From Rhodoluna sp. (GTDB lineage: Bacteria > Actinomycetota > Actinomycetes > Actinomycetales > Microbacteriaceae): a stretch of 64,000 bases of DNA. The notes beneath the pieces are model-generated. The model had not been told where the DNA came from and ran no database searches. It saw only the letters and a program-made list of their open reading frames with translations. The position numbers and the translations under genes are program-made. Shown in pieces: positions 606 to 28,872 of the stretch (positions are counted from its first letter, which is position 1; each line of letters starts with the position of its first letter). The stretch covers positions 62,001-126,000 of the forward strand of contig JAHEBZ010000003.1 in the NCBI GenBank assembly GCA_024641985.1. The letters are read 5' to 3'.

Positions 606-611
606 CTGGTT

Positions 612-631
612 CCCGACTTTAATTTGTCGGG
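612..631. terminator. Hairpin between convergent ybbN-like gene and glgB
   Basis: A CCCGAC / GTCGGG 6-bp stem with an 8-nt AT-rich loop sits in the short gap between two convergent stop codons. A weak T-rich stretch follows on the plus side. It probably acts as a modest bidirectional terminator. Confidence 0.5.
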
Positions 632-637
632 TGTTAT

Positions 638-2845: not shown

Positions 2846-2853
2846 GATGCTCC

Positions 2854-4875: not shown

Positions 4876-4885
4876 ACTCCATAAC

Positions 4886-6937: not shown

Positions 6938-6944
6938 AGGTCAA

Positions 6945-6950
6945 AGCCTA
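6945..6950 (-). promoter_or_regulatory. -10 box (TAGGCT) of glgX, leaderless type
   Basis: TAGGCT on the minus strand lies 7 nt before the glgX ATG and there is no ribosome-binding site. Transcription would start at or next to the A of ATG. No convincing -35 is visible. Confidence 0.55.
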
Positions 6951-6993
6951 CCCAACCTTAAGTTTCAAGCGGATTAACCGGTGGCTCGGAAAG

Positions 6994-6999
6994 TAGTGT
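6994..6999 (+). promoter_or_regulatory. -10 box (TAGTGT) of the cysteine desulfurase gene, leaderless type
   Basis: TAGTGT ends 6 nt before the ATG at 7006, with no Shine-Dalgarno between. The spacing matches the same arrangement at other genes of this window. Confidence 0.5.
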
Positions 7000-7005
7000 T
7001 GAAGC

Positions 7006-8178
7006 ATGGCTATTTATCTCGACCATGCTGCAACCACGCCGCTGCGCCCCGAAGCGCTTCGGGTGCTTCAAGCGCATCTAGAGATAGTGGGCAACCCCTC
7101 TTCGGTGCATCAATTGGGGCAAGCCGCTCGTCGAGTTTTGGAGGAAGCTCGAGAATCTCTGGCGGCCACGATCGATTGCAATCGCAGCGAGGTTATTTTC
7201 ACTTCGGGTGGCACCGAGAGCAATAATTTGGCAATCAAAGGCCTCTTTTGGCAACAAAATTCCCTCGATTCGGGCAAGCGCTTGATTGTTAGTGCCTATA
7301 CCGAACACCATGCTGTGATCGATGCAATCGAGTGGCTCGAGCGTGAACAGGGAGCAGAGACGATTTGGTTGCCGGTTTCAGATGCCGGCGTGGTCGATTT
7401 AGTTGCTCTCGAAACACTCGTTGCCGAGCGCGGCGCCGAAATCGCTCTAATCACGCTGATGTGGGCAAACAACGAGACCGGGGTTTTGACCGACATTGGG
7501 GCTGTCACCCGAATCGCCGCCACCTCGAACATTGCGGTGCATTCAGATGCCGTTGCGGCACTTGGGCACTGCGAGATTAATTTTTCTAAATCAGGCCTTG
7601 CGGCCATGTCGCTTTCGGCTCATAAGGTTGGCGGGCCGGTGGGTGTTGGCGCACTTATAGTTGCGCGTTCGGCCAAATTGACTTCGCTAACGCACGGCGG
7701 TGGTCAAGAACGCGGAATGCGCTCTGGAACCATGAATTCGGCGGGAGCAGCAGCCTTTGCAGAGGCGGCCAAGCAGGCCACGATGGGGCAAGTTGCTTTG
7801 CAAGCAAGATTGGTTCCCTTAGTTGCCAAGTTGCGCGCTGCAATTGAGGGGGCAGCAACTGAAGCTCGATTTAGTCGTGGTGATGCACCTGGTTTGCTCG
7901 AAACAATTCATTACACCTTTGATGGCTGCAGCGGCGATTCGCTCTTGTTTATGCTCGATTCGGCCGGCGTTGCAGTCTCGACAGGTTCGGCATGCACTGC
8001 GGGCGTCGCCTCGGCATCACACGTTCTGTTGGCTATGGGGCGCAGCGAGCGCGAGGCTACTGGCACATTGAGAATCAGTCTGGGCTACACCACTACCGAA
8101 GCCGATGTTGAGGCATTCATTGGGGCGTTTCCGGCTGCGCATGCGCGAGCAAAAATGGCTGGCTTGGCAGCTGGCTAG
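7006..8178 (+). CDS. Cysteine desulfurase (NifS/IscS-type)
   Basis: 390 residues. This PLP enzyme removes sulfur from cysteine as a persulfide. MAIYLDHAATTPLRPEAL is the classic N-terminus. TSGGTESNNLAI binds the cofactor phosphate, LSAHKVGGPVGVG carries the PLP lysine (about residue 205), and STGSACTAGVASASHVL carries the persulfide-forming cysteine in a mobile loop. mnmA starts 39 bp downstream on the same strand, so it most likely donates sulfur for MnmA-dependent tRNA 2-thiolation. In actinobacteria the nearby suf operon usually has its own SufS, so a tRNA role fits better than general Fe-S assembly. That last point is inference. Confidence 0.93.
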   Translation: MAIYLDHAATTPLRPEALRVLQAHLEIVGNPSSVHQLGQAARRVLEEARESLAATIDCNRSEVIFTSGGTESNNLAIKGLFWQQNSLDSGKRLIVSAYTEHHAVIDAIEWLEREQGAETIWLPVSDAGVVDLVALETLVAERGAEIALITLMWANNETGVLTDIGAVTRIAATSNIAVHSDAVAALGHCEINFSKSGLAAMSLSAHKVGGPVGVGALIVARSAKLTSLTHGGGQERGMRSGTMNSAGAAAFAEAAKQATMGQVALQARLVPLVAKLRAAIEGAATEARFSRGDAPGLLETIHYTFDGCSGDSLLFMLDSAGVAVSTGSACTAGVASASHVLLAMGRSEREATGTLRISLGYTTTEADVEAFIGAFPAAHARAKMAGLAAG

Positions 8179-8204
8179 CCCGCCAAAAAGTCGCCCTTCG
8201 AAAG

Positions 8205-8210
8205 TAGACT
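8205..8210 (+). promoter_or_regulatory. -10 box (TAGACT) of mnmA, leaderless type
   Basis: TAGACT ends 7 nt before the mnmA ATG. The 7 nt between (TGAGGCT) do not form a Shine-Dalgarno at usable distance. Confidence 0.55.
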
Positions 8211-8217
8211 TGAGGCT

Positions 8218-11459
<3,242 letters not shown>

Positions 11460-11469
11460 CCGCCCGAAA

Positions 11470-11491
11470 CCTGTTTGAAACTCCAAACAGG
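11470..11491 (+). repeat. Perfect 8-bp hairpin after ligA, abutting the gatC -10 box
   Basis: CCTGTTTG, a 6-nt loop, then CAAACAGG. It ends directly against the TAAACT hexamer at 11492-11497. There is no T-tract, so it is not a classical intrinsic terminator. It could end ligA transcripts weakly or be an operator for gatCAB. Confidence 0.4.
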
Positions 11492-11497
11492 TAAACT
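11492..11497 (+). promoter_or_regulatory. -10 box (TAAACT) of gatCAB
   Basis: TAAACT lies 34 nt before the gatC ATG. Start of transcription near 11504 would leave a leader of about 28 nt holding the GA-rich ribosome site (GAGAGA). Confidence 0.45.
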
Positions 11498-11531
11498 TGA
11501 GTCTAAACAACTCCCGTTCTGAGAGAGATTC

Positions 11532-11831
11532 ATGTCTGAAATTACCCCCGACCTAGTTAGGCACCTTGCCGGCCTCAGCCGCATCCTGGTGACAGACCAA
11601 GAGGTTGAACAATTTGCCGAGCAGCTTTCGCTGATTGCTGATTCAGTTGCAACCGTGAGTGCTGCAATTGAAGGCGGCCATGTGCCAGCCACCAGCCACC
11701 CCATCCCAATGGCAAACGTTTTTCGCGAAGACATCGTTGAGCCTTCGCTAACTCAAGAGCAGGCGCTATCGGGCGCACCTGATTCAGGCGATGGCCGTTT
11801 TCGGGTTGCTGCAATTCTGGATGAGGAGTAA
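11532..11831 (+). CDS. gatC: Asp/Glu-tRNA amidotransferase subunit C
   Basis: 99 residues, normal for GatC. It wraps around GatA and stabilises the GatCAB complex that converts Glu-tRNA(Gln) to Gln-tRNA(Gln), and often Asp-tRNA(Asn) to Asn-tRNA(Asn). The N-terminal helix ITPDLVRHLAGLSRILVTDQEV and the PxxVFREDIVEPSLT stretch are typical. GAGAGA precedes the ATG. It is first in gatC-gatA-gatB, with gatA 3 nt downstream. Confidence 0.94.
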   Translation: MSEITPDLVRHLAGLSRILVTDQEVEQFAEQLSLIADSVATVSAAIEGGHVPATSHPIPMANVFREDIVEPSLTQEQALSGAPDSGDGRFRVAAILDEE

Positions 11832-11834
11832 CCC

Positions 11835-13340
11835 ATGTCGGATCTAATTCGCAAAAACGCTAGCGAGCTTGTTGAACTGCTCAACAACGGCAATGTGTCT
11901 TCGGTTGAGGTCACCCAAGCCCACCTAGACCGCAGTGCTGCGGTCGATGGCGCCGTGCACTCTTATCTTTACCAAAACCCCGAAACCGCGTTGGCTACTG
12001 CAGCTAACATCGATCGTCGTCGTGCAGCGGGCGAAAAACTGCACCTCTTGGCGGGTCTGCCGATCGCGGTCAAAGACAACCTCACCACAACCGATGCGCC
12101 AACCACTTCTGGGTCAAAAATTCTTGAGGGCTGGGTTCCTCCTTACGATGCAACCGTGGTTAGCAAGCTTCGTGAAGCGGGCATGCCTATTTTGGGCAAG
12201 ACCAACCTCGATGAATTTGCAATGGGTTCATCAACCGAATTTTCGGCTTATGGTGCAAGCCACAACCCATGGGATCTAGATCGCATCCCAGGCGGTTCTG
12301 GCGGAGGTTCGAGCTCTGTGGTTGCTTCATTCCAGGCTCCGTTGGCAATCGGCTCAGACACCGGTGGTTCGATTCGCTTCCCGGCATCGGTCACCGGAAC
12401 TGTGGGGATCAAGCCCACCTACGGTGCTGTTTCGCGCTATGGCTTGATTGCTTTGGCCAGCTCGCTCGACCAGATTGGCCCAGTTAGCCGCAATGTTCTC
12501 GACTCTGCTCTCTTGCAAGATGTGATTGCCGGGCACGACCCTCACGACAGCACATCGTTGCCCGAATCGCTTGGCTCGATGGCAGAGGCTGCCCGCAAAC
12601 TCGATGTCAAGGGCATGCGCGTTGGCGTAATCAAAGAGTTGATGGGCGAAGGTTTTCAACCTGGCGTTATGGCCCGATTCAACGAAAGCCTAAATCTGTT
12701 GCAGCAGGCCGGCGCCGAAATCGTCGAGGTTTCGTGCCCAAACTTTGAATACGCCATTGCCGCGTATTACCTAATTTTGCCGGCCGAGGCATCCTCGAAC
12801 TTGGCAAAATTTGATTCTGTTCGCTTCGGATTGCGTGTTGCGCCAGAGGGTAACCCAACCATTGAGCGAGTGATGGCCGCCACCCGCGAGGCCGGTTTTG
12901 GCCCCGAGGTGAAGCGTCGAATCATCCTTGGAACCTATGCTTTGTCGAGCGGTTCTTACGAAAAGTATTATGGCGCGGCGCTCAAGGTTCGCACGCTAAT
13001 TCAGCGCGACTTTGATGCAGCCTTCGCCAAGGCTGATGTGTTGGTTTCTCCAACTGCGCCAACCACGGCGTTCAAGCTTGGCGAAAAGCTAGATGACCCA
13101 TTGGCCATGTATCTAAACGACATCGCAACCATTCCCGCAAACCTTGCTGGAATCCCAGGCATGTCGATTCCAAACGGTTTGGCCGAAGAAGATGGCTTGC
13201 CAGTTGGCATCCAGATTTTGGCACCAGCCCGCGAAGATGCCCGCCTCTACCAAGTTGGCGGTGCTCTCGAAAAGATGCACGAAGAAATTTGGGGCAAACG
13301 AATGATTGATTTTGCACCCGAGCTGGAGGTTCGCGGCTAA
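11835..13340 (+). CDS. gatA: Asp/Glu-tRNA amidotransferase subunit A
   Basis: 501 residues. This amidase subunit releases ammonia from glutamine. The Ser-cisSer-Lys triad is visible: Lys in [11 protein letters not shown], the GGSGGGSSS stretch, and the nucleophile Ser in [12 protein letters not shown] (about residues 75-185). The stop overlaps the gatB start by 1 nt (TAATG). The ammonia is channelled to GatB. The presence of gatCAB suggests that at least Gln-tRNA is made indirectly; no glnS or asnS lies in this window. Confidence 0.97.
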
Positions 13341-14842
13341 TGGCTAAAGACGAATTGATGAATTACGAGAAGGCTCTAGAACAGTTCGAGGTCGTAATCG
13401 GCCTCGAGGTTCACATTGAGCTGAACACTAAGACCAAGATGTTCTGCGGTTGTCGCAACGAGTTTGGCGATGAGCCGAACACAAATGTTTGTCCAATCTG
13501 CATCGCCCTTCCGGGTGCGCTGCCTGCCGTAAACCGCAAAGCTGTCGAATCTAGCATCGCTATTGGTTTGGCGCTTGGCTGCGACATCGCCCCCAACGGG
13601 CGGTTTGCGCGCAAGAACTACTTCTATCCAGACCTAGCCAAGAACTTCCAAACCTCGCAATACGATGAGCCGATCGCGTTTAACGGTTCGCTCGAAGTAG
13701 AGATTCCGTCTGGGGCGGTGCACGTAATCGACATCGAGCGCGCCCACATGGAAGAGGATGCCGGCAAGTTGACCCACATTGGTGGCTCAACCGGGCGCAT
13801 TCAGGGTGCCGAATACTCGCTAGTCGACTACAACCGAGCCGGCGTGCCGTTGGTTGAAATTGTTACCCGGCCAGTGTTTGGTGCCGGCAGTGAGGCGCCA
13901 GAGTTGGCTGCGGCCTATGTGCGTTCGATTCGCGAAATCGTTAAGGGTCTGGGTGTTTCTGACGCCAAAATGGAGCGTGGCAATGTGCGCTGTGACGCAA
14001 ACGTTTCACTTCGACCTCATGGTCAAGAAAAACTTGGAACTCGCACCGAAACCAAGAATGTTAACTCGCTTCGCTCTATCGAGCGTGCGGTTCGCTACGA
14101 AATTCAGCGTCAGGCTGCAATTCTGGCCAAGGGCGGCAGCATCATCCAAGAAACACGTCACTGGCACGAAGACAAGGGCGCAACAAGCTCTGGTCGTCCA
14201 AAATCCGACGCCGATGATTACCGCTACTTTCCTGAACCTGACTTGGTTCCGGTTCAGCCTTCTAAAGAGTTGATCGAGTCAATTCGTGCAACTCTGCCCG
14301 AAAAGCCAGCCGATCGGCGCAAGCGTTTGCAAAACGATTGGGGCTTTGCCGAGCTCGAGTTTCGCGATGTTGTAAACGCCGACCTGCTAGATGTTATCGA
14401 AGAAACGGTTGCCGCCGGCGCCAAGCCTCAATCGGCCCGCAAATGGTGGTCTGGCGAGCTGGCGCGTGCAGCCAACAACGAAGACAAAGATGTTGCCGAT
14501 TTGGCTATCACCCCGATTCAGGTTGCCGAATTGGCTTCGCTGGTTGAGGCAGGCAAATTGAACGACCGACTGGCCCGTGAGGTTTTGACATATGTTCTGG
14601 CCGGCGAGGGCAACCCCGCCGAAATCGTGTCGGCACGTGGCCTAGAGGTGGTATCTGATGATGGCGCTCTAATCGCCGCTATCGATGCAGCGCTGGCAAA
14701 ACAGCCAGATGTTCTAGATGCTATTCGCGAGGGCCGCATGCAGGCTGCTGGCGCTGTTATCGGCGCTGTTATGCAGGCAATGAAGGGCTCAGCCGATGCA
14801 GGTCGAGTTCGTGAGTTGTTGATCGAAAAAGCCAACGCCTAA
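13340..14842 (+). CDS. gatB: Asp/Glu-tRNA amidotransferase subunit B
   Basis: 500 residues. It activates the misacylated tRNA carboxylate with ATP and amidates it. VVIGLEVHIELNTKTKMFCGC near residue 20 is the GatB hallmark and the cysteines bind zinc. The C-terminal YqeY-like helical tail ends in MKGSADAGRVRELL. The start lies in the gatA stop. A strong terminator follows within 15 nt. Confidence 0.97.
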   Translation: MAKDELMNYEKALEQFEVVIGLEVHIELNTKTKMFCGCRNEFGDEPNTNVCPICIALPGALPAVNRKAVESSIAIGLALGCDIAPNGRFARKNYFYPDLAKNFQTSQYDEPIAFNGSLEVEIPSGAVHVIDIERAHMEEDAGKLTHIGGSTGRIQGAEYSLVDYNRAGVPLVEIVTRPVFGAGSEAPELAAAYVRSIREIVKGLGVSDAKMERGNVRCDANVSLRPHGQEKLGTRTETKNVNSLRSIERAVRYEIQRQAAILAKGGSIIQETRHWHEDKGATSSGRPKSDADDYRYFPEPDLVPVQPSKELIESIRATLPEKPADRRKRLQNDWGFAELEFRDVVNADLLDVIEETVAAGAKPQSARKWWSGELARAANNEDKDVADLAITPIQVAELASLVEAGKLNDRLAREVLTYVLAGEGNPAEIVSARGLEVVSDDGALIAAIDAALAKQPDVLDAIREGRMQAAGAVIGAVMQAMKGSADAGRVRELLIEKANA

Positions 14843-14852
14843 GTTTCAAATC

Positions 14853-14891
14853 AAAAACCCCGCCAGAGCTTTTGCTCTGTGCGGGGTTTTT
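14853..14891. terminator. Strong bidirectional intrinsic terminator after gatB and tRNA-His
   Basis: A-tract, CCCCGC plus CAGAGC, TTTT loop, GCTCTG, GCGGGG, T-tract. The A- and T-flanks make it work in both directions, so it can end gatCAB on the plus strand and tRNA-His on the minus strand. Confidence 0.9.
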
Positions 14892-14894
14892 CTT

Positions 14895-14971
14895 TGGGGT
14901 GAGTAACGGGGCTTGAACCCGCGGCCTCCTGGACCACAACCAGGCGCTCTACCAGCTGAGCTATACCCACC
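14895..14971 (-). tRNA. tRNA-His (GTG), CCA encoded
   Basis: The minus strand folds as a full cloverleaf: acceptor GTGGGTA/TACTCAC, D-loop AGCTCAGCTGGTAGAGC, anticodon loop TTGTGGT, T-arm GGGTTCAAGCCCC. The base before the acceptor stem is G and the discriminator is C, giving the G-1:C73 pair specific for tRNA-His. CCA is encoded. It reads into the shared terminator. Confidence 0.96.
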
Positions 14972-15018
14972 ATGTGATGCGCTTGCGCACAACAACTCAT
15001 AGAGTCTAACAGGTTTAG

Positions 15019-15627
15019 TTAGATCGTGCTTTTGATAGTTTGGGCGGCTAGCTTAGCCTCATCGGTGGTTGGGCCAGGCAAGGGCACCAATACGGTTTGC
15101 CGATAATAGCGAAGTTCGTCTATCGATTCGAGGATGTCGGCTAATGCCCTGTGGCCGCCATCTTTTTTAGGTAGCTGAAAGTAGGCCCTTGGATACCAGC
15201 GGCGCGATAGTTCTTTGATTGAAGACACATCGATGTTGCGGTAATGCAAGTGCTGATCTAGTGCAGGCATGTATTTATTTAAGAACATGCGATCGGTGCC
15301 AATGCTGTTGCCAGCCAAAGGGGCCTCTTTTGGGTTGGGAACAAATTGCTTGATGTAATCGAGAACAACCTGCTCAGCCTCGGCCAATTCGATACCGCCA
15401 TCGACCTCGTTGATGAGACCAGAATCGGTGTGCATTTGGCGAACAAAATCACCCATGCCAGCCCAAGAGTCTTCACTTGGCTTGATAACCACGTTAAGCC
15501 CGGCATCCAGAACCTCAAGTTCAGAGTTGGTTATGACCACTGCTATCTCAACCAGACAATCGGCTTCGAGGTTCAACCCCGTCATTTCACAGTCGATCCA
15601 AACTAGGTTGTCAGAAATTTCAATCAC
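15019..15627 (-). CDS. orn: Oligoribonuclease
   Basis: 202 residues. This DEDDh 3'-5' exonuclease degrades 2-5 nt RNAs and pGpG. Exo I is LVWIDCEMTGLNLEADCLVEIA, Exo II PLAGNSIGTDRMFLNKYMP, and Exo III HRALADILESIDELRYY with the catalytic His. The start is a GTG with no Shine-Dalgarno. A TATTTT hexamer ends 6 nt before it, suggesting a leaderless mRNA. This hexamer lies in the T-tract of the hairpin that ends the upstream permease gene. Confidence 0.94.
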   Translation of the reverse strand: MIEISDNLVWIDCEMTGLNLEADCLVEIAVVITNSELEVLDAGLNVVIKPSEDSWAGMGDFVRQMHTDSGLINEVDGGIELAEAEQVVLDYIKQFVPNPKEAPLAGNSIGTDRMFLNKYMPALDQHLHYRNIDVSSIKELSRRWYPRAYFQLPKKDGGHRALADILESIDELRYYRQTVLVPLPGPTTDEAKLAAQTIKSTI

Positions 15628-15633
15628 AATCCA

Positions 15634-15639
15634 AAAATA
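15634..15639 (-). promoter_or_regulatory. Putative -10 box (TATTTT) of orn inside a terminator T-tract
   Basis: TATTTT on the minus strand ends 6 nt before the orn GTG. The same T-run follows the 15642-15671 hairpin. Confidence 0.4.
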
Positions 15640-15641
15640 GG

Positions 15642-15671
15642 GGAGGCCTCCGACAATAGCCGGAAGCCTCC
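15642..15671 (-). terminator. Intrinsic terminator of the RND permease gene
   Basis: An 11-bp stem (GGAGGCCTCCG / CGGAAGCCTCC, one C-A mismatch, 8-nt loop) 17 nt after the permease stop. On the minus strand it is followed by CCTATTTTT. Confidence 0.65.
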
Positions 15672-15688
15672 AATTCTACCTACTAGTT

Positions 15689-18600
15689 TTAGGCGCTCTT
15701 CCAGAGCTTGTCGCGCTTGCTCTTTAGGGCCCGGTTGCCTCGCTTGAGTTGGCGTCTTTCTTTGCGGCCCTCAACCAGCCAATAAAGCACTGGAACGATA
15801 ACCAGGGTCAGCACTGTCGATGAGAACAGTCCGCCAATTACCACGACTGCTAGTGGTTGCGAGATGAATCCGCCACCGCCGGTAATGCCGAGCGCCATTG
15901 GCGTCAATGCGAAAATCGTGGCCAGTGCAGTCATCAAGATGGGTCGCAAGCGCTGACGCGAGCCATCCATGATCGCTTCTTGCATTGGTCGACCTTGCTT
16001 GCGATATTGATTGATCAAGTCGATCAGCACAATCGCGTTTGTAACCACGATGCCAACCAGCAACAGCATGCCGATCAGCGAAGGCACACCCAGCGGAGTG
16101 TTGGTGATCAAGAGCATGCCCAAAGCGCCCGTTGCCGCAAATGGAATTGAGATCAACAAAATTAGCGGTTGGATGAGGCTCGAGAACGTAGCCACCATGA
16201 CGATGAATACGATAGCGATGGCCGCAAGCAAAGCAAGCCCAAGCTGTTGGAATGAGCTGGCTTGATCGGCGCTTACGCCGCCAAGTGTGGCAGTTGCGCC
16301 GGCCGGAAGCTCTACCGTTGCAAGTCGCTTGGTAACTTCGGCCGAAATGGCGCCTAGGTTATCTCCGGTTGGGGTTAGTGAAACCTTTGCGGTGCGGTCG
16401 CCCTTCTCGCTGGCTATCGAAACGGGCACTGATGCCAATTCAATCTTGGCCAAACTCGAAAGCGAAACTAAGCCGCTTGAGGTTGGAATTTGAATGGCCT
16501 TTACTTCGGCAATAGTGTCTGGAACATCCGTTTGCACAACATAAAGGGGGGTCTCAACGCTTTCTAGGTTCAGCTTTCCGATGCTGGCTGGGCGCAGTTT
16601 TGAAGCCACAATTCCTCCAACTGCCACCTCGGTTAGGCCCTTTTGGGCTGCGGCTTTGCGGTCAACGGTCACTTTGAGAGTGCGCTGTTTTTCGGCGAGC
16701 GAGTTGGTAACCTCAGAAACATTAGGTGTGCCGCTCATGGCATTTTGAATCGAAACGATTGCCTGATTCAATTTTTCATCGGTGGTGGCAATCACCTTGA
16801 TGTCAATGGTGCTAGATGAACCAAAGCCGGGGCCGCCGCCAGATGAAAACTTGACTGTGCCAACCTCAGAATTTGCCGCGAAGGTCTTTTCTAGTTTGGC
16901 CTGAAGCGCAACCTGATCGGTGCCCTCAATCATGGTGACTTGAATCGAGGTGCCACCTGCTGATGCACCAAAGGCCACGCGGCCATCGCCCGATGAGCCG
17001 ATCGAGGTTTGCACAACCTCTACAGAATCTTCGGCCAACAAAATGGCTTCTACCTTGGCTGCGGCCTGGTCTTGCTGCGCAAAGGTTGCCCCCGGTTCGA
17101 GCGTTTGATTCAGCACAAAACTGGTTGAACCAGATGAGCCGATGAAGTCTGTCTTTAGCTGCGGAACCAAACCGAAAGTAAAAATAAGAACCACGAACGC
17201 CGAGATGATGGTGATTACAGGGCGCTTTTGAGTCCAGCTCAAAATCGGCAGATAGCCTCGTTGCAGCCAGCTCTTGCGTTCTTTAGCCTCTTCGGCCTCG
17301 CGCGCCTCGGCAGCAAACTTTGCAAGGTCATCACCCGAGGCCTCGGCTAGCGCCTTGGGGTTCTTCAAGAACCAGAACGCCAAAACGGGAACAATGGTTA
17401 GCGAGACAAACAAGCTGGCTACAAGAGCAATTGCGAAAGTGAAGGCAAACGGACGGAAGATTTCGCCGATAAGCCCGCTTACCAGTGCAATCGGCAGGAA
17501 CACGGCCACGGTAGTGATGGTGGCTGCAGTGATGGCGCCAGAAACCTCTTTAACGGCGTGCAGCACGGCCTTCTTTTTGGGTTCGCCGTATGCCAAGTGG
17601 CGGTTGATGTTTTCGATTACCACAATGGAGTCGTCAACCACACGCCCGATAGCGATGGTGAGTGCGCTCAAGGTCAAGATGTTGAGCGAGTAGCCAAATT
17701 GGCTGAGGCCAATGAATGTGATCAGAACCGAAGTTGGAATCGAAATAGCGGTTACTAGCGTTGACCTGACCGATAGCAAGAACAAGAGAATTACGATGAT
17801 GGCGAAGCTCAAGCCAAGCAAGCCTTCAGTGGTTAGGTTTTCAAGTGATTTCTCGACAAACGGAGCCTGGTCGAAGATTGTCACGATGGTCACATCGCCC
17901 AATTTCTTCTTTAGTTCTTCGATTTTGTCTTGAACCCCGTGAGACACCGCAACAGTGTTTCCATCCTGGGTTTTAACTATAGAAATTGACAGCGCTTCTT
18001 TGCCGTTGGTGCGCGAAATGCTTGTTACCGGAGCGTTCTCGTAGGTAACTTGGGCGACCTGATCAACTGTGAGAACCACGGTCTTTGTGGTTGAGGTAGT
18101 TGTTGAGCCAAAGCCCGAAGGAATGGTGAAACCTGAAGGCAGGCTGCCGGCTAAGCCGGCTGGAATTTGAGATGACGAAGTAGCTACAGAAGTTTTGCTG
18201 CCGATGAGCGGCAGTTTCTTGAAGGCAGCTAGGCTTTCGACCGGTGTTCCTACTTCAACCGAAATTGAACCTTTCGAATCTTTTACAGAACCCGCCGGAA
18301 TAACGAAGCCGTTGGCTTGCAGTGCACTAACAATCGACTGCTGGCTTAGGCCATTTGCCGATAGCACCGATTGCTTCAACTTAAGATTTATGCGTTTTTC
18401 GGTAAAGCCCGCAACGGTGACATCGCGAACGCCAGGAACCGAGGCTAAAAGCGGAGTTGCGATGTCGGCAAGGGTTTGGCCCAGTGCCTCGTTGTCGCCA
18501 TTATTGGCCGATACGCCAAGGGCAATGATTGGCACTGAATCGAAACTGCCTGAAAGAATGTTTGGCTCTACATCGGCTGGCAGGGTGTTTTTGATGCCGG

Positions 18601-20626: not shown

Positions 20627-21430
20627 ATGAAAGTTGTTGACAAAGTTGTCGTAGTTACTGGTGCTGGTGCGGGCATGGGGCGCGAACTAACTCTCGAACT
20701 TGTTCGTCGCGGAGCCAAGGTTGCCGCCATCGACCTTCGGCCCGAGGGGCTTGCCGAGACAAAAACTCAGGCAGAACAAATCGGTGGGCGAATCGAAACA
20801 TTCGTCGTTGATGTGACCGATGGTGATGCTGTGGCAAAACTGCCAGCACAAGTCGAATCGACTCTCGGATCTGCCGATGTTCTGTTGAATAACGCCGGAA
20901 TCATCCAGCCGTTTGTGAAAATCAACGAACTAACCATCGAACAAGCAGCTCGCGTAATGAACGTGAATTTCAATGGGCCTTTTTTGATGGTCAAGGCTTT
21001 TCTGCCGGGTCTGCTAGCCAAAAGCCAGGCGCACATCTTGAACGTCTCATCTATGGGCGCTTACGCTCCCGTTCCGGGCCAAAGCGTTTACGGCGCTTCT
21101 AAGGCGGCTGTCAAGTTGTTCACCGAGGGGCTTCGCTCAGAGATGATTGGCACCAATGTTGGGGTCACAATTGTGTTCCCTGGCGCAATTCACACCAATA
21201 TCGCCCAAAATTCGGGCATGGCAATGCCAGCCAATGCCGATGCCGCAGAATCTAAATTTAAGATGACCGAGCCGGGCGTGGCTGCCAAGGCAATGATTGA
21301 CGCCATCGAAAACAATAAGGCTCGCATTTGTATAGGCGGCGACGCCACTCTTATGGACAGGTTGAGTCGACTGAACCCGGTTTTCGCGGCCAATTTGATT
21401 GCCAAGCAAATGGCCTCACTTTTAAAGTGA
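20627..21430 (+). CDS. Short-chain dehydrogenase/reductase
   Basis: 267 residues. VVVVTGAGAGMGRE is the TGxxxGxG nucleotide motif, DVLLNNAGI the NNAG motif, and VSSMGAYAPVPGQSVYGASKAAV the catalytic Ser-Tyr-Lys. Asp at the end of beta-2 (VAAIDLRPEG) suggests NAD+. The substrate cannot be read from the sequence. AAAGGAG precedes the ATG. TAGTCT at 20579-20584 is a likely -10. The DoxX-like gene overlaps its stop (GTGA), so the two are probably cotranslated. Confidence 0.88.
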   Translation: MKVVDKVVVVTGAGAGMGRELTLELVRRGAKVAAIDLRPEGLAETKTQAEQIGGRIETFVVDVTDGDAVAKLPAQVESTLGSADVLLNNAGIIQPFVKINELTIEQAARVMNVNFNGPFLMVKAFLPGLLAKSQAHILNVSSMGAYAPVPGQSVYGASKAAVKLFTEGLRSEMIGTNVGVTIVFPGAIHTNIAQNSGMAMPANADAAESKFKMTEPGVAAKAMIDAIENNKARICIGGDATLMDRLSRLNPVFAANLIAKQMASLLK

Positions 21431-21846
21431 GGCCTTTCGCTCGAGTTGCCCTTGCTGTTGCGTTGGTATTTGCCGGAACCGCGCATTTGAGCTTTGCACG
21501 CCAAAGTTTTCAGGCCCAGGTGCCAAGCTGGTTGCCATTGGATGCCGATTTTGTGGTTCTCGCTTCGGGCTTCGTGGAGCTAGCTCTTGGTCTTGGCTTG
21601 GCGGCGGTGAAGCGTTATCGATGGCAAATTGGATTGCTCACGTCATTCTTTTTTGTGGCCATTTTCCCTGGCAATCTATCCCAGTGGCTAACCGGCACAT
21701 CTGCCTTCGGTTTAGAAACAGATCAGGCCCGATTCATCCGCCTGTTTTTTCAACCTATGCTTGTAATGTGGGCCATTTGGTCAACGAGCGCCATCGCTGG
21801 TTTCAGAGCTTGGCTGGTGCAAAGACGCATGGTTAGCGGGCTGTAG
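21427..21846 (+). CDS. DoxX-like small membrane protein
   Basis: 139 residues with four TM helices (VALAVALVFAGTAHL, a GFVELALGLGLAA segment, a LLTSFFFVAIFPGNL segment, and FFQPMLVMWAIWSTSA). The pattern fits the DoxX/MauE family of putative redox-partner membrane proteins. The GTG start overlaps the SDR stop. The last three codons and the TAG lie inside the tRNA-Pro acceptor region, so processing of a joint transcript would cut off the stop codon. Function unknown. Confidence 0.7.
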   Translation: MRPFARVALAVALVFAGTAHLSFARQSFQAQVPSWLPLDADFVVLASGFVELALGLGLAAVKRYRWQIGLLTSFFFVAIFPGNLSQWLTGTSAFGLETDQARFIRLFFQPMLVMWAIWSTSAIAGFRAWLVQRRMVSGL

Positions 21847-21913
21847 CGCAGTTTGGTAGCGCACTTGTCTGGGGGACAAGGGGTCGCCGGTTCAAATCCG
21901 GTCAGCCCGACCA
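21837..21913 (+). tRNA. tRNA-Pro (GGG), CCA encoded
   Basis: Cloverleaf with acceptor CGGGCTG/CAGCCCG, anticodon stem CTTGT/ACAAG around loop CTGGGGG, T-arm CCGGTTCAAATCCGG, then ACCA. The first 10 nt overlap the end of the DoxX-like coding region. A T-run follows within 10 nt. Confidence 0.95.
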
Positions 21914-21938
21914 TTGTGTTTTTTAGGTTTCAAAAACC

Positions 21939-22238
21939 TCATAAAACAAGGGCCGCTAGACCCAGAATTATCACCTGAGCAACTAATAGCGCATTGTCGA
22001 TTGCAGATCCAATTGATGCGTCGATGCCCGCGCTCAGCGCTAGCTTTCGCTTATTTGCCAGATAAAGATGGCCAAGCATCAGTGCGCCGCAAATTAACAA
22101 AATTATTATCGCCAGCAAAGATTCGCCAATAAAAGCCAATCGGCACACCCAGATTGTTGCTGCAAACAGCGCTAAGCTGCTTCGCGACCAGGCTAAAGCC
22201 GTGCGCTCGGGTTGCGTGTCGTTTGTTAAGTAGCCCAT
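21939..22238 (-). CDS. DUF202 membrane protein (YidG-like)
   Basis: 99 residues, three TM helices (SLALFAATIWVCRLAFIG, LLAIIILLICGALMLGHLYL, LLVAQVIILGLAALVL). The start PERTALAWSRSSLALFA matches the DUF202 ERTxLAWxR motif. It abuts the preceding DUF202 gene (TAA then ATG with no gap). Two adjacent DUF202 genes next to sulfatase and maturase genes recall E. coli yidG-yidH. Molecular role unknown. Confidence 0.82.
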   Translation of the reverse strand: MGYLTNDTQPERTALAWSRSSLALFAATIWVCRLAFIGESLLAIIILLICGALMLGHLYLANKRKLALSAGIDASIGSAIDNALLVAQVIILGLAALVL

Positions 22239-22604
22239 TTATGCGATGGTTAGCAGCGCAACTAGCAAGGCAATTGCTGCAACCGCGATAGCAAAACCGA
22301 TCCCAGATGCCAGCGACGGCAGCGGTTTAGAGTGGCGCATAGCCTTTTCGATTTTTGCCCAGCGAACAAACGAAAACACGGCAATTAAAATGCCTGTGAT
22401 AATCAACGCTGCCACTACAACCGCTCGCAACGTTGCGTTGCCTCCAATGCCAAGTTCGTTAATGGCCACACCGATTGCGATTACCGCAATTGCGCTTCGA
22501 ATCCAAGCCAAAAACGTCCGCTCGTTTGCGAGTGTAAATCTTGGGTCTGGTTCAGAACCGGTTTCATACACCGATTTTGGCCAACGATTCTGATCTGAAG
22601 TCAT
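22239..22604 (-). CDS. DUF202 membrane protein (YidH-like)
   Basis: 121 residues, three TM helices (SAIAVIAIGVAINELG, AVVVAALIITGILIAVFSFV, IGFAIAVAAIALLVALLTI). The cytoplasmic N-terminus has DPRFTLANERTFLAWIRS, the YidH-type DUF202 motif. The ATG is 27 nt after the sulfatase stop on the same strand, with AAAGGA about 10 nt upstream, so it is probably in the sulfatase operon. Function unknown. Confidence 0.85.
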   Translation of the reverse strand: MTSDQNRWPKSVYETGSEPDPRFTLANERTFLAWIRSAIAVIAIGVAINELGIGGNATLRAVVVAALIITGILIAVFSFVRWAKIEKAMRHSKPLPSLASGIGFAIAVAAIALLVALLTIA

Positions 22605-22631
22605 CTAGATGGTTTCCTTTATGATTTCGAT

Positions 22632-24506
22632 TTAGTTTCGAGGTGTAGACATCGACTTGACCACGTTAGGGTTATTTTTTTGCAACCGCTTCATGAAAAG
22701 CTCTAAATCGAAAACCTGTGCCGACGGGACGTATTTGCCTTCGAGCGTTAGGTCTAGATAACGAAGTCCGGTGTAGGCGTTGAAATAGCCTTGGTCTTCA
22801 AAATCATCGGTTCGAAGTTGTTGAAGCAATGTTTTCACACTTGCCGACAGCTCCGCCAATTTTGGTTCTATCGACGCCGCCGATTTCGCAGCCCGAATGA
22901 GCACCTGATATGTGGAGCTTGAAGTCAGTAGTTGTTGGTAAGCGCCAATCGCTAGATCTCGGTGTTCTAGCCGAGCCAAACATTCTGCGATTATGGCCTT
23001 TACATGCCCATTCGAGTCGGTGAGAGCTTCAACAATGTCAACCAGGGCAGGCATCGCATTTTGGCCAAGCATCAACAAACCCTGTGCGCCCCAAAAGCGC
23101 AACACCTCGTTGTCTTTTTTGAGTGCGGCAACAAAGGTGGGCAGGTTGGTTGCATCACCGTGAATGGTTAAATTAGCCAAGTGTAAAACTTCTGCAAGTG
23201 GGTACAAACGAGGGTTTCGCGAGTTGGGCAGGCCCTCGATGGGTGAATTCTCAGGTATGAATCCGTTGTCAAATATTTCCATTATTCGGCTGTCGATGGC
23301 ATCGCGAAAACGTTGAATGGTAGCCGAAAACTCAGACTCTCCAATCAAGTTATTTACTTGGTGAGGGTCTGCATGGTTATCGTAAAACTCTTCAGCCGGC
23401 TTCGTGCCAAAATAGCGCGACTGCATTTCATCAGTTCGCTGGGCCAAAAATTCGGTTTCCCAAGATTGGTAGCCCTTAGCTTGCCATGCAAATGCCTGAT
23501 TTTGCAACCATGGGCGATTTGGAAAATAGTTTCGCACATACAAATAGCGAGATGTTCGAGCAGACCGAATCATGTCGTAGTTTTCGTCCATGCGATCCCG
23601 ACCAGAAAATACGATCTGATCGTCGTCGGCAGGTGCAACCGAGAGTAGCGATTTGCCGATCATGGTATCGGGGGCCGGCAGCCCACCAGCAATATCAAAC
23701 ACGGTTGGTGCCAGATCAATGAGGCTAACTGCCGTCGAGATGCTTTGCGGTTCTCGCCAAATGCGTGAGCTTCTCATGCTCTCAGGAATCTTGATCACCA
23801 ACGGAACCTTGGCTCCGCTGTCATATATGAACCGCTTCGACCTGGGGGTTGATCCGCCATGGTCTGAAATTTGAATTATGACAGTTTGGTCTGCCAAACC
23901 GTCATGTTCGAGTTCATCCAGAATTTGAGCGATGTGGTCGTTCGATTTTTGCATCGCGGTGTAATAGCGGGCGAAATCTTCGCGAATTTCTGGTGTGTCT
24001 GGCAAATATGGTGGCAGCTCTATTTGATCCGCGGTTACTAGTGTTACCTGCTCGCGAAAAATCGACGACTCATGAGTTTCTACGAGATTGAAGAACGCGA
24101 AAAAGGGCTGATCGCTGGCCCGATTGCGCCAATGTGCCGACATCGATGAGTCGTGCCAAGTCGCCTTCATGTCGGGTTCGAAATTATAGTCAGCTTTGCC
24201 AACGTTTAGGCAATAATAGCCCTCGTCTTGAAGTGGCTTAGTGATCAGTTTCACAGATGCTGGCACCACAGCATCGCCTCGCATGTGCATGGCCGGTCCA
24301 ACGCTTGCAGGCTCCATGCCTGTGATCATTGAAAATCTTGAAGGCGAGCAAACCGGAGAACTGCAAAAAGCGTTCTCAAAGATGATGGCGTCTTTTGCGA
24401 TTGCATCCACCGCATTCATCGCAGATAAAGTTTCGCCATAGGTGGCCGAGTGCGGTGAGAGGTCTTCGGTGAGAATAATCAAGATATTTGGCTGAAATTT
24501 TGACAT
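22632..24506 (-). CDS. Type I sulfatase with C-terminal HEAT-like repeats
   Basis: 624 residues. SSPVCSPSRFSMITG is the C-x-P-S-R motif whose Cys (about residue 52) is converted to formylglycine. Metal ligands appear in NILIILTEDLSPHSATYG and VIIQISDHGGSTPRSKR. No signal peptide is seen, so it is probably cytoplasmic. Residues from about 430 to 600 look like helical HEAT/Arm repeats (RFWGAQGLLMLGQNAMPAL, VKAIIAECLARLEH). Such tails occur in some planctomycete sulfatases; that comparison is from memory. The start overlaps the maturase stop by 1 nt. Substrate unknown. Confidence 0.88.
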   Translation of the reverse strand: MSKFQPNILIILTEDLSPHSATYGETLSAMNAVDAIAKDAIIFENAFCSSPVCSPSRFSMITGMEPASVGPAMHMRGDAVVPASVKLITKPLQDEGYYCLNVGKADYNFEPDMKATWHDSSMSAHWRNRASDQPFFAFFNLVETHESSIFREQVTLVTADQIELPPYLPDTPEIREDFARYYTAMQKSNDHIAQILDELEHDGLADQTVIIQISDHGGSTPRSKRFIYDSGAKVPLVIKIPESMRSSRIWREPQSISTAVSLIDLAPTVFDIAGGLPAPDTMIGKSLLSVAPADDDQIVFSGRDRMDENYDMIRSARTSRYLYVRNYFPNRPWLQNQAFAWQAKGYQSWETEFLAQRTDEMQSRYFGTKPAEEFYDNHADPHQVNNLIGESEFSATIQRFRDAIDSRIMEIFDNGFIPENSPIEGLPNSRNPRLYPLAEVLHLANLTIHGDATNLPTFVAALKKDNEVLRFWGAQGLLMLGQNAMPALVDIVEALTDSNGHVKAIIAECLARLEHRDLAIGAYQQLLTSSSTYQVLIRAAKSAASIEPKLAELSASVKTLLQQLRTDDFEDQGYFNAYTGLRYLDLTLEGKYVPSAQVFDLELFMKRLQKNNPNVVKSMSTPRN

Positions 24507-25408
24507 TAGTTTTCCTTACTGTCGGTAACCAAGCGAAAACCGGTGTGTGACAAAGCGCTGTCTGGAGTGTTTTTTATCCTCGCGCTTACTCGATAGCGGT
24601 TGCAATACGAGTCGTGGCACAAATAAGACCCACCCTTAAGAACTTGCTGGCCATCCCAGGTCGATGATGTCCATTCCCACACATTTCCAACGAGATTGTA
24701 AAGCCCATAGCCGTTGACTCTAAATGATTCGGCAGGAGCGGTCGCCAGAAAGCCATCAGCCAAAGTGTTGAACCTCGGAAACTCGCCCTCCCAAATGTTG
24801 GCGCCCGCAACCGCGCCTTCAAAGAAATCATTTCCCCATGGGTATGTCTTTTGCTCGAGCCCTCCGCGAGCGGCGCATTCCCACTCTGCCTCAGTGGGCA
24901 GCCGTTTGCCAGACCATCTGGCAAAAGCGTTGGCATCATTGAACGAAACATGCACAACCGGATGATCTTGAATTTCGTTAACGTCAGAATCTGGGCCGAA
25001 AGGGTGCGCCCAGTCGGCTCCATCAATGGCAAGCCACCAATTTGGCGACTGCAGCCTGCCTCGCGTGTGCTTTGCCAAGACTTCTTCAGACACCAGACCA
25101 TCAAAAACGTAGGACCAGCCGAAGGATTCAGATTCGGTTTCATAACCGGTAGCTGCAACAAATTCTACGAACTGGCGGTTAGTCACGGTTGTGCGATCGA
25201 TCCAGAATTCGTTCACTTCGACTTCACGAACAGGCCCTTCATTGTCAGCGTGAAAAACGTGGTGCGAATCCGAGCCCATTAGAAATGTTTGAGCGGGTAT
25301 GAGCGCCATGCCCTCGGTGTTAAAGGTTGGCAAAATTGAATCAGAATGAGCTAACTCACGCCCGCCTCTTGAGGGTGAGCAGCAGCCTTGCTTAGTCGAT
25401 TCACTCAA
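24506..25408 (-). CDS. Formylglycine-generating enzyme (sulfatase maturase)
   Basis: 300 residues. Copper- and O2-dependent FGE oxidises the sulfatase Cys to formylglycine. Conserved blocks: IPAQTFLMGSDSHH, HPVVHVSFNDANAFARW, LPTEAEWECAARGG, NVWEWTSSTWDGQ and GGSYLCHDSYCNRYR. The last holds two Cys five residues apart, as in the copper site of active FGEs. Oddly the N-terminus contains QGCCSPSRGG, a copy of the CxPxR substrate motif. It sits between two sulfatase genes (1-nt overlap downstream, 3-nt gap upstream), so it surely matures both. Confidence 0.92.
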   Translation of the reverse strand: MSESTKQGCCSPSRGGRELAHSDSILPTFNTEGMALIPAQTFLMGSDSHHVFHADNEGPVREVEVNEFWIDRTTVTNRQFVEFVAATGYETESESFGWSYVFDGLVSEEVLAKHTRGRLQSPNWWLAIDGADWAHPFGPDSDVNEIQDHPVVHVSFNDANAFARWSGKRLPTEAEWECAARGGLEQKTYPWGNDFFEGAVAGANIWEGEFPRFNTLADGFLATAPAESFRVNGYGLYNLVGNVWEWTSSTWDGQQVLKGGSYLCHDSYCNRYRVSARIKNTPDSALSHTGFRLVTDSKEN

Positions 25409-25411
25409 CTG

Positions 25412-26884
25412 CTAAAGGTATTCCTTGAGTAATCCAGAGATGTTCAAACCTTTGAAATTCAGATGCTTAACCTTCGCTCCGGGGTAATACGGTTCGTCGC
25501 CAACTTCACGTTGAATCTCGAATAGTTGCTGCAAAAGGTCTTCCTGAATTTCCTTGTATGCAGGCTCGCCATAAACACTCCGCATTTCTTTGGGGTCGTT
25601 TTCAAGATCAAACAGTTCCCACTCAATTGGATACTTTGTGTCGCCGGTCAACTCCAAACCCATGCCATCGCTGTAGTAGCAAATCAGTTTGTATTTGTGC
25701 GTTCGAATGCCGTAGTGCGAGCAGGCAGCGTGAATTGGGTCATCGTGCTCCCAATAGCGGTAGTACATGGATTGAGGCCAATTCTCTACGGTTGTTTGTT
25801 CGAGCAAGCCCTTGAAGCTTCTGCCCTGAGCTCCTTCGTGAACCTCAACTCCGGCGAAGTCGCAAAAAGTTTTGGCAAAGTCAACGTTTGTAACTATCTC
25901 GTCGATTTTTGTGCCTGGCGCAATTGCACGCGGGTATCGCATCAAGAGTGGCATGCGGATCGATTCGTCATACATGTATCGCTTGTCGAACCAGCTGTGC
26001 TCGCCCAAAAAGAACCCTTGGTCGGAGGTGTAAATAACCAAGGTGTCTTCTTCGAGGCCGTTTTCGGCCAAATAATCTAGAAGGCGCCCGGTGTTTTCAT
26101 CTATAGATGCAACGCACCGCAAATAGTCTTTGATGAAAAGTTGGTAGCCCCACTTTTGACCTTCGTATTGGGGGAGGTCTGGCTTAAAGGCACCGGTCTT
26201 TTCTTTAACAACAGCCTTTGGCATGTGTTTATAGATGTTCATCTTGGCGTTTTTTACACCCTCAACGCGCGGTGACAAATCTTCGTGCAGGTTGTCAGGC
26301 TCTGGAATATCGAAGTCGGTGTAAAGATCTTTATGCTTTTCATCGGGTGTCATAGGCAGGTGAGGGGCCTTGTGATGAACCAAAAGGCAGAACGAATCAT
26401 CTTTATCGAGCCCGTCTAGCCAATCAATCGCTAGGTCGGTTGTGATTGTGGTTACATAACCCTTGTGCTGCACTTCGCCTTCGGGGGTTATGAACATCGG
26501 GTCGTTGTAGTCGCCCTGCCCAGGCAGCACCTCCCAGCGATCGAAGTGGGTGGGGTCAGATTTTTCACCGTGACCCAGGTGCCACTTGCCAAAAATCGCG
26601 GTCTTATAGCCGGCGCCCTTTAAATCTCCAATGAATGTGGGTCGAGTGTTGTCGAGGTCTTCCCAGATGGTTCGCACTTCGTTCACATGGTTATATGTGC
26701 CCGTAAGAATGGCGGCTCGGCTTGGAGCGCAAATTGAGTTGGTGCAAAAGGCTCGATCTAGCAGCGCGCCACCGGTTGCAATGCGATCGATGTTGGGAGT
26801 TTTGTTGATTTTGCTGCCATAGGCGCTGATGGCCTGCGTGGTGTGGTCGTCACACATTATGAAAATAATATTTGGCCGCTTCAT
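25412..26884 (-). CDS. Type I sulfatase
   Basis: 490 residues. TNSICAPSRAAILTGTY is the CxPSR formylglycine motif (Cys at about residue 52). Metal-site residues are in NIIFIMCDDHTTQAISAYG and VIYTSDQGFFLGEHSWFDKR. GKWHLGH is typical. The ELFDLENDPKEM C-terminal motif is also conserved. The length is that of E. coli YidJ-type and polysaccharide sulfatases. No signal peptide. First gene of the cluster: GGAG lies 5 nt before the ATG, and TAAACT about 30 nt upstream is a likely -10. Substrate unknown. Confidence 0.9.
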   Translation of the reverse strand: MKRPNIIFIMCDDHTTQAISAYGSKINKTPNIDRIATGGALLDRAFCTNSICAPSRAAILTGTYNHVNEVRTIWEDLDNTRPTFIGDLKGAGYKTAIFGKWHLGHGEKSDPTHFDRWEVLPGQGDYNDPMFITPEGEVQHKGYVTTITTDLAIDWLDGLDKDDSFCLLVHHKAPHLPMTPDEKHKDLYTDFDIPEPDNLHEDLSPRVEGVKNAKMNIYKHMPKAVVKEKTGAFKPDLPQYEGQKWGYQLFIKDYLRCVASIDENTGRLLDYLAENGLEEDTLVIYTSDQGFFLGEHSWFDKRYMYDESIRMPLLMRYPRAIAPGTKIDEIVTNVDFAKTFCDFAGVEVHEGAQGRSFKGLLEQTTVENWPQSMYYRYWEHDDPIHAACSHYGIRTHKYKLICYYSDGMGLELTGDTKYPIEWELFDLENDPKEMRSVYGEPAYKEIQEDLLQQLFEIQREVGDEPYYPGAKVKHLNFKGLNISGLLKEYL

Positions 26885-26931
26885 CGCTGCTCCATACTCC
26901 GAGGAAGTTTAAATCTATCAAAGCGTTGAGG

Positions 26932-27004
26932 CGCCCTCGGTAGGAATCGAACCTACGACCAAGAGATTAGAAGGCTCCTGCTCTATCCACTGAGCTACGA
27001 GGGC
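26932..27004 (-). tRNA. tRNA-Arg (TCT), no encoded CCA
   Basis: Minus strand: acceptor GCCCTCG/CGAGGGC, D-arm AGCTCAGTGGATAGAGC, anticodon loop CTTCTAA, T-arm GTAGGTTCGATTCCTAC, discriminator G. The anticodon stem (GGAGC against TCTCT) has a C-U mismatch at position 31-39 and a G-U at 27-43. CCA must be added after transcription. Confidence 0.9.
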
Positions 27005-27043
27005 ATGTTGCCAGGCAACCTGACAAGTTTATCTGTTGACCAG

Positions 27044-27535
27044 CTAGAAGGCCGAGTCGCCAAGGTTCACGCCAAGCAAGTCGGCGATGGCGTCGATAAC
27101 AACCTTGTGGTCGTCGCGCTGCGGCAAACCTGAAACGGTGCAGGTGGCAACAACTCCGGCGCCAGCAACCCTGATCGGCACACATCCGCCGGCAGGCGCG
27201 TGATCGCGCGGGTCGAGTGCCATAAATTCGAGAATGTTTTGCCCAATCAAAATGTGCAAACCAATGCCATATGAGCTGGTTTCGAGCTTGTTCACCAGAT
27301 TGCGTTTGCGACGTGCCCAATCGGCGTTTGCCGGTGTGGTGCCCGGAAGTGCGCAATAGAAAAGCGGCGTTTCGCCGGCTCTAATATCGACAACTATCGG
27401 CCAATCGTTTTGAATTGCCCGTTCGTGCAGCAAAGAACCCAGCTGCCAAGCCGTGTTTTGGTCGAAGCTGCTAAAAACTAGCAGTTCTTCTTGGCGCTTA
27501 ATCGCCTCAATGTCGCGTTTTGCCTGGTCAGTCAT
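27044..27535 (-). CDS. UPF0303 / HbpS-GlcG-like heme-associated protein
   Basis: 163 residues. The fold pattern (helical start, then WPIVVDIRAGETPLFYCALPG and a Gly-rich VPIRVAGAGVVATCTVSGLPQRDDHKVVIDAI) matches the UPF0303 family (PF03928, HbpS/GlcG). Members bind or degrade heme in some species; the role here is not known. Its ATG is 2 nt after the argG stop, so it is probably cotranscribed with argG. Confidence 0.78.
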   Translation of the reverse strand: MTDQAKRDIEAIKRQEELLVFSSFDQNTAWQLGSLLHERAIQNDWPIVVDIRAGETPLFYCALPGTTPANADWARRKRNLVNKLETSSYGIGLHILIGQNILEFMALDPRDHAPAGGCVPIRVAGAGVVATCTVSGLPQRDDHKVVIDAIADLLGVNLGDSAF

Positions 27536-27537
27536 GT

Positions 27538-28872
<1,335 letters not shown>

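Follow-up and report, generated by a model that had tools for sequence, protein, structure and literature searches.

DUF202 proteins YidH and YidG beside sulfatase and maturase genes: a possible route for the release of sulfate

Why should two small membrane proteins of a family with no assigned function in Pfam be encoded in one tight array with two sulfatases and a formylglycine-generating enzyme (FGE)? The question is raised by a 64 000 nt stretch of a Rhodoluna genome (contig JAHEBZ010000003.1 of assembly GCA_024641985.1; the whole stretch is called the window below, and positions are those of the window), in which five genes lie on the minus strand between positions 21939 and 26884. They encode a sulfatase, FGE, a second sulfatase, a YidH-type DUF202 protein and a YidG-type DUF202 protein, and their operon-like packing, with gaps of 3, −1, 27 and 0 nt as computed from the open reading frame (ORF) coordinates, is as a preliminary description of this DNA had reported it, each gene being supported by Pfam. 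DUF202 proteins are common in bacteria, and we know of no function for Escherichia coli YidG and YidH. Our tentative answer, whose chance of being correct we place a little short of even, is that YidH and YidG form an anion channel of the VTC type, an outlet for the sulfate that cytoplasmic sulfatases produce; that the genes are truly linked, on which this answer is built, we rate as far more certain than the mechanism itself.

The linkage is evident within the family Microbacteriaceae, from which 199 genomes were drawn. DUF202 matches over the cut-off form 64 clusters in 62 of these genomes, comprising 59 tandem pairs and 5 singles (those of G003 and G089 being low-scoring and not recovered by our own profiles), and there are 64 FGE matches of more than 200 bits in 54 genomes. 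A full-length FGE gene is found no more than 2 kb from 12 of the 64 DUF202 clusters (11 of 63 without the window), where 0.144 would be expected within 5 kb, an expectation computed for the 36 clusters in FGE-bearing genomes. Both families are present in 34 genomes, DUF202 only in 28, FGE only in 20 and neither in 117 (P = 1e-8, uncorrected for kinship). Sixty DUF202 neighbourhoods were fetched, the clusters of G192, G193 and G197 being left out and that of G000 being the window. At the 12 FGE-linked loci the FGE gene is co-directional with the pair in 10, five times upstream and five times downstream, and this variation in order and strand argues that the linkage is not one frozen block. Outside the family draw, the 80 loci with the YidH proteins closest to that of the window were compared, and in 13 of them the fetched flanks contain a sulfatase or FGE gene; among these are loci of Georgenia, Labedella, Microbacterium, Nocardioides, Demequina, Cryobacterium, Amycolatopsis, Actinocorallia and Pseudonocardia (one of the Labedella loci comes from a genome already in the family set); in a phylum-wide set, among the matches listed, DUF202 pairs are found 4.4–6.3 kb from FGE in G309, G574 and G556 and twice in G285. 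S1_8-type sulfatases, which the second sulfatase of the window resembles, are present at 6 of the 24 DUF202-linked loci that have a sulfatase (L040, L055, L057, L094, L095 and L131) and at none of the 26 unlinked FGE loci that have one (P = 0.008), a comparison in which the cut-off was set after the hits were known and the linked set covers more taxa.

Two of the linked settings are noted here for their gene content. In Cryobacterium tagatosivorans (L135, positions 218–18336) the locus has five sulfatase ORF matches, FGE and not one but two YidH/YidG pairs, apart from each other, together with a TctA transporter gene and genes named ABC-type from a reading of their sequences. Two contigs titled as a Bifidobacterium breve metagenome-assembled genome (L149 and L151; title unchecked) carry the order sulfatase-YidH-YidG followed by an NMT1-like gene.

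The association extends to a second maturase, the radical-SAM enzyme anSME, which is unrelated to FGE. A Pseudomonas-centred set of 349 genomes contains 15 DUF202 pairs, and 24 anSME genes over the cut-off in 14 genomes; three of the 15 pairs adjoin a full-length anSME gene (G696, G829 and G873; 0.024 expected). Four genomes have both a pair and anSME, and the fourth (G796) has an anSME fragment beside the pair. The enrichment of DUF202 near maturase genes that the preliminary description had called for thus holds in two phyla, with FGE and with anSME. One further locus of this set (L186) has FGE and two sulfatases within 8 kb of the pair, and with our profiles no sulfatase, FGE or anSME was found within 8 kb of the remaining fetched pairs. 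In G829 (L183) the genes for YidK, YidJ, YidH, YidG and anSME form a single run, apparently a more complete version of the E. coli yid region. E. coli YidF is a 165-aa fragment of anSME whose best stretch matches positions 160–245 of 363; yidI, on the other strand, lies between yidGH and yidJ, and the transporter gene yidK adjoins yidJ. The E. coli parallel drawn in the preliminary description therefore survives in that a DUF202 pair, a sulfatase and a maturase-derived gene stand together, and the 'same four functions' in a distant phylum hold by function, but the maturase gene of E. coli is an anSME fragment rather than FGE, and yidI is interposed. Short anSME-derived genes of 162 and 165 aa (L182, 8476–8964; L097, 5115–5612) directly follow yidG in two genomes, one that of E. 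coli and the other a further member of the Pseudomonas set; both genes match anSME from about position 160 of 363. FGE needs copper, and delivery of copper to FGE was considered as the role of the pair and excluded, since the pair also adjoins anSME. A pair found beside two unrelated maturases should serve something that they have in common, namely the sulfatase, its substrate or its product.

The proteins themselves suggest a possible channel. YidH (22239–22604, minus strand; 121 aa; Pfam DUF202, 1e-16) and YidG (21939–22238, minus strand; 99 aa; Pfam DUF202, 4.9e-06) score 61.5 and 27.3 bits respectively against PF02656, for which the curated cut-off is 23.4. In its AlphaFold2 model YidH consists of three long helices (pLDDT 89.6), and the top 12 PDB matches in a Foldseek search are all VTC chains, with TM-scores (by target) reaching 0.78. 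At the level of sequence, a profile built from 96 YidH proteins matches Vtc1 at 3.6e-7, which identifies YidH as a homologue of Vtc1. YidG is also modelled as three helices (pLDDT 84.8), with little outside them; the Vtc1-like three-helix transmembrane (TM) domain is recognizable in YidH and weak in YidG. Passages of PMC9911596 describe how, in VTC, five TM1 helices build a polyphosphate channel that is lined by K24 and R31 of Vtc1 and has its constriction at R31. In the profile alignment, R31 of Vtc1 corresponds to the arginine of ANERT in YidH, and K24 to an arginine seven residues before it, an equivalence that assumes a gap-free extension of the alignment by one residue and numbering of chain 8i6v_A from 1. 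Both basic pore positions are arginine in 95 of 95 aligned YidH sequences, and the second is arginine (R12) in 72 of 72 aligned YidG sequences; the TM1 motif that contains it (ERTxLxW) is the most conserved part of both proteins. The N-terminal segment of YidH before TM1 is conserved as well, with G16, P19 and D20 invariant. Pfam finds neither an SPX nor a TTM polymerase domain in the five module proteins, to which the search was limited, the rest of the genome not being included.

The partner enzymes are readily assigned. Sulfatase 1 (25412–26884, minus strand; 490 aa; Pfam Sulfatase, 4.6e-51, plus SGSH_C) is N-acetylglucosamine-6-sulfatase-like, and we take it to belong to S1_11; its best PDB match is the N-acetylglucosamine-6-sulfatase 5g2v (7.8e-114) and its formylglycine motif is CAPSR at C52. 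FGE (24506–25408, minus strand; 300 aa from an uncertain TTG start codon; Pfam FGE-sulfatase, 5.6e-75) has FGE 6s07 as its best PDB match (8.2e-86) and the active-site CX4C pair C264/C269 expected of a copper-type FGE. Sulfatase 2 (22632–24506, minus strand; 624 aa; Pfam Sulfatase, 1.2e-30) is S1_8-like, with the S1_8C sulfatase 9bba as its best PDB match (2.5e-66) and human N-sulfoglucosamine sulfohydrolase (SGSH, 4mhx) further off (3e-23); it has the motif CSPSR at C53 and possibly a C-terminal HEAT region, the HEAT_2 match being under the Pfam cut-off. The C/S-x-P-x-R motif and the PF00884 score place both among type I sulfatases, and sulfate ester hydrolysis is predicted for both; an amino-sugar sulfate as their substrate is our guess. 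The lambda-carrageenan paper PMC12549532 names an 'S1_8C' sulfatase. Inspection of the N-terminal segments revealed no hydrophobic N-terminus in either sulfatase or in FGE and no signal peptide in either sulfatase, and no transporter gene adjoins the module within the window, in agreement on both counts with the preliminary description.

Taken together, the five genes would constitute a compact cassette for the use of small sulfated compounds inside the cell. A transporter encoded elsewhere in the genome would serve the uptake of sulfate esters, FGE would turn the active-site cysteine of both sulfatases into formylglycine, and the sulfatases would cleave the imported esters (possibly amino-sugar sulfates) in the cytoplasm. 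YidH and YidG would together build a VTC-like (Vtc1-type) heteromeric channel, whose TM1 helices would surround an arginine-ringed pore and through which the freed sulfate would leave, driven by the inside-negative membrane potential; its exit would avert product inhibition and the build-up of sulfate. A precedent for the need is described in part of PMC13408680, according to which sulfate efflux from the lysosome prevents competitive inhibition of sulfatases and the exporter is the SLC26 protein SLC26A11. Bacterial relatives of this exporter occur near FGE. In a comparison set of 40 family FGE loci without DUF202 (L199–L238, a subset of such loci), a SulP gene (Sulfate_transp, SulP/SLC26) is present within the fetched ~17 kb in nine and directly beside FGE in five, and Sulfate_transp is the commonest membrane-protein family beside FGE (5 of 69 neighbours by Pfam, the top family after sulfatase domains). 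Together with the direction of the membrane potential, these SulP/SLC26 facts favour sulfate release by the pair but stop short of proof.

A number of observations weigh against this reading. The SulP genes beside FGE are convergent with it in all five loci (L202, L212, L213, L218 and L238), and five genes all tail-to-tail with FGE perhaps represent one inherited arrangement. The absence of SulP from the 12 loci with FGE and DUF202 is not significant (0/12 against 5/40, P = 0.58), for which reason mutual exclusion of SulP and DUF202 was dropped as a proposal, and SulP does lie beside FGE in L038 and L050, where a DUF202 match is 7–8 kb from FGE. The Foldseek E-values of YidH are 0.015–0.19, and YidG matches VTC weakly (best E-value 0.82) and has no basic residue at the K24 position (aspartate in 64 of 72). 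The aligned YidH and YidG sequences were chosen by profile score and de-duplicated, a choice that favours conserved rows. Passages of PMC9911596 report that K24A/R31A substitution in yeast Vtc1 raised VTC activity in vitro, while mutants in basic residues of Vtc3 and Vtc4 lowered it, and according to part of PMC10299036 YidH was once a candidate D-alanine exporter in E. coli that was without effect in an accumulation assay. Whether or not DUF202 is present, the sulfatases of FGE loci appear to be cytoplasmic, as judged by eye from the 45 of 73 sulfatase frames in which an N-terminal motif was found; the N-termini alone were used, the linked and unlinked labels in that listing being unreliable because DUF202 frames of <150 aa were excluded. 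The pair is thus not a marker of a cytoplasmic sulfatase, and a specific tie to cytoplasmic as opposed to secreted sulfatases was dropped. Finally, at 125 of the 157 YidH loci neither a sulfatase nor a maturase gene lies within 3 kb; the pair therefore has other settings and is not a subunit dedicated to sulfatases. The suggestion in the preliminary description that DUF202 proteins work with cytoplasmic sulfatases is supported by the recurrent linkage; joint action, and the role of the pair in it, we infer. As a separate observation, a metagenome-assembled genome titled Microbacteriaceae (L117, 5396–7842) has a SulP gene directly upstream of YidH-YidG.

A wider form of the sulfate-channel proposal, possible in our view although somewhat unlikely, is that bacterial YidH/YidG proteins are two-subunit members of a VTC-channel family conducting small oxyanions, with sulfate carried in sulfatase operons and other anions elsewhere. 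Were this so, the polyphosphate channel of eukaryotes would be part of a bacterial family whose channels release the products of cytosolic enzymes.

The best of the competing explanations develops a possible membrane-anchor role that the preliminary description had raised: the pair would be a scaffold holding a cytoplasmic sulfatase or maturase at the membrane, beside an uptake transporter. The enzymes of the window are soluble, the conserved segment of YidH before TM1 could bind a partner, and the corresponding TM domains of VTC bear a cytosolic enzyme, which the Vtc1 N-terminus positions, as described in passages of PMC9911596. However, the partner sulfatases come from several subfamilies and the maturases from two unrelated families, YidG has little outside its helices to offer a partner, and it is the TM1 motif that is most conserved in both proteins; we consider a scaffold unlikely.

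Less probable again is that a general membrane module has landed beside sulfatase genes by hitch-hiking, with no joint function. Most sampled pairs are indeed elsewhere, and 12 genomes carry the pair in another fixed, glmU-prs-gnd-like setting (the gene names come from sequence reading). The distribution of linkage is informative here. On a YidH tree of 157 loci, a non-random sample with many forks unresolved, 32 loci have a sulfatase or maturase gene no more than 3 kb away (in two of them close to that limit), and the linkage label needs 20 changes, of which at least seven are forced by well-supported (starred) branches; shuffled labels need a mean of 29.4 changes and none of 500 shuffles was as low as 20, so that linkage is clustered as well as recurrent. 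Of the 173 genes that directly adjoin the pair in the same direction at 119 loci (genes being called by a rough coding score), FGE is the largest family with 14 members (one genome counted twice), followed by sulfatase with six, while anSME has three. Three other neighbour clusters also have six members each, two of them only in a 6-phosphogluconate-dehydrogenase-like context and one in six Pseudomonas/Stutzerimonas loci, and among 119 further neighbours, chosen after removal of FGE, sulfatase, anSME and part of the repeated clusters, no listed Pfam family has more than three members. The DUF202 pair is a general module, and sulfatase maturation is its most repeated partner in this sample. That no other neighbour family recurs at as many loci as FGE, that at least seven label changes are required and that in the window the pair is grouped with every sulfatase and FGE gene found in a small genome all speak against chance association.

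Uptake of the sulfate ester through YidH/YidG, which would suit the lack of an adjoining transporter gene in the window, we regard as improbable. Transporter genes from a range of families are present at several linked loci (YidK at L183, TctA at L135, NMT1-like at L149 and, at L072 and L112, a gene presumably of an MHS-like family), and a passive channel cannot concentrate an anion; at an inside-negative potential it lets a divalent anion out, not in. On these two grounds efflux fits better than uptake among the transport readings. The most doubtful explanation, that the pair helps maturation or provides a metal that the sulfatase needs, such as calcium, agrees with linkage to both maturase classes, as a need of the sulfatase itself would, but in fold the match is with an anion channel, and a role tied to the copper of FGE leaves the anSME linkage unexplained.

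The setting of the cassette suggests how it probably came into this Rhodoluna genome. The source genome (1.38 Mb, 91% complete, 6 contigs) has no sulfatase, FGE or DUF202 gene that we could find other than the two sulfatases, one FGE and two DUF202 genes of the module. Of 62 sampled genomes of the genus (20 of them ≥90% complete with ≤5% contamination), the other 61 lack FGE, and there is no DUF202 match in the three further genus members of the family draw. The cassette therefore probably arrived whole, the DUF202 pair entering this small genome with the sulfatase and FGE genes. No source was found among the fetched loci, in which the best identities are 55% for sulfatase 1 (S11), ~52% for FGE, 35% for sulfatase 2 (S8) and 49% for YidH. 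The module fills the space between tRNA-Pro(ggg) (21837–21913, plus strand), its downstream border, and tRNA-Arg(tct) (26930–27004, minus strand), its upstream border, both called by ARAGORN and Rfam. Promoter-like and terminator-like sites in 21700–27100 are not above the numbers in shuffled sequences (4 against 4.7 and 6 against 6.6 expected), and no such site above chance separates the DUF202 genes from the others, a separation that the preliminary description had named as telling against a common module. A similar SDR gene directly adjoins argG, in the same orientation, in several genus-mates; in the window (20627–28860) the two are ~6 kb apart on opposite strands. The site between the tRNAs seems to have been rearranged; a simple insertion there was considered and is not shown, given the SDR-argG adjacency in genus-mates and compared loci that, at ≤4.3 kb, are too short.

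In the open-licence literature searched we found no paper pairing 'YidH' with 'sulfatase', and an apparent co-mention of DUF202 with sulfatase in PMC10434189 is, in the passages concerned, DUF2023 or DUF2027; PMC5819568 likewise contains both of these terms. Linkage to two unrelated maturases and homology to Vtc1 provide a testable sulfate-channel hypothesis for YidG and YidH, which, if true, would explain how cells with cytoplasmic sulfatases dispose of sulfate.

Among known systems, the yidF-yidG-yidH/yidJ-yidK region of E. coli K-12 is like the window in joining a DUF202 pair to a sulfatase gene and a maturase-derived gene, and differs in having an anSME fragment in place of FGE, a single sulfatase, yidI in between and a transporter gene, yidK. 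The family FGE loci without DUF202 (L199–L238) share FGE and cytoplasmic-looking sulfatases with the window, some of them with SulP beside FGE, and have no S1_8-type sulfatase at our cut-off. SLC26A11, described as the lysosomal sulfate exporter in part of PMC13408680, would be similar in the proposed removal of sulfatase-made sulfate, although it is a carrier of the lysosome and belongs to the SLC26/SulP family. With VTC (Vtc1 and the TM domains of Vtc3 and Vtc4; PDB 7ytj, 8i6v and 9umg) the pair shares the three-helix TM domain, the ANERTFLxW motif and the basic K24/R31 positions, and by analogy the module may resemble it as an anion channel, there for polyphosphate, coupled to a cytosolic enzyme; the module differs in the lack of SPX and TTM domains and in its two bacterial subunit types.

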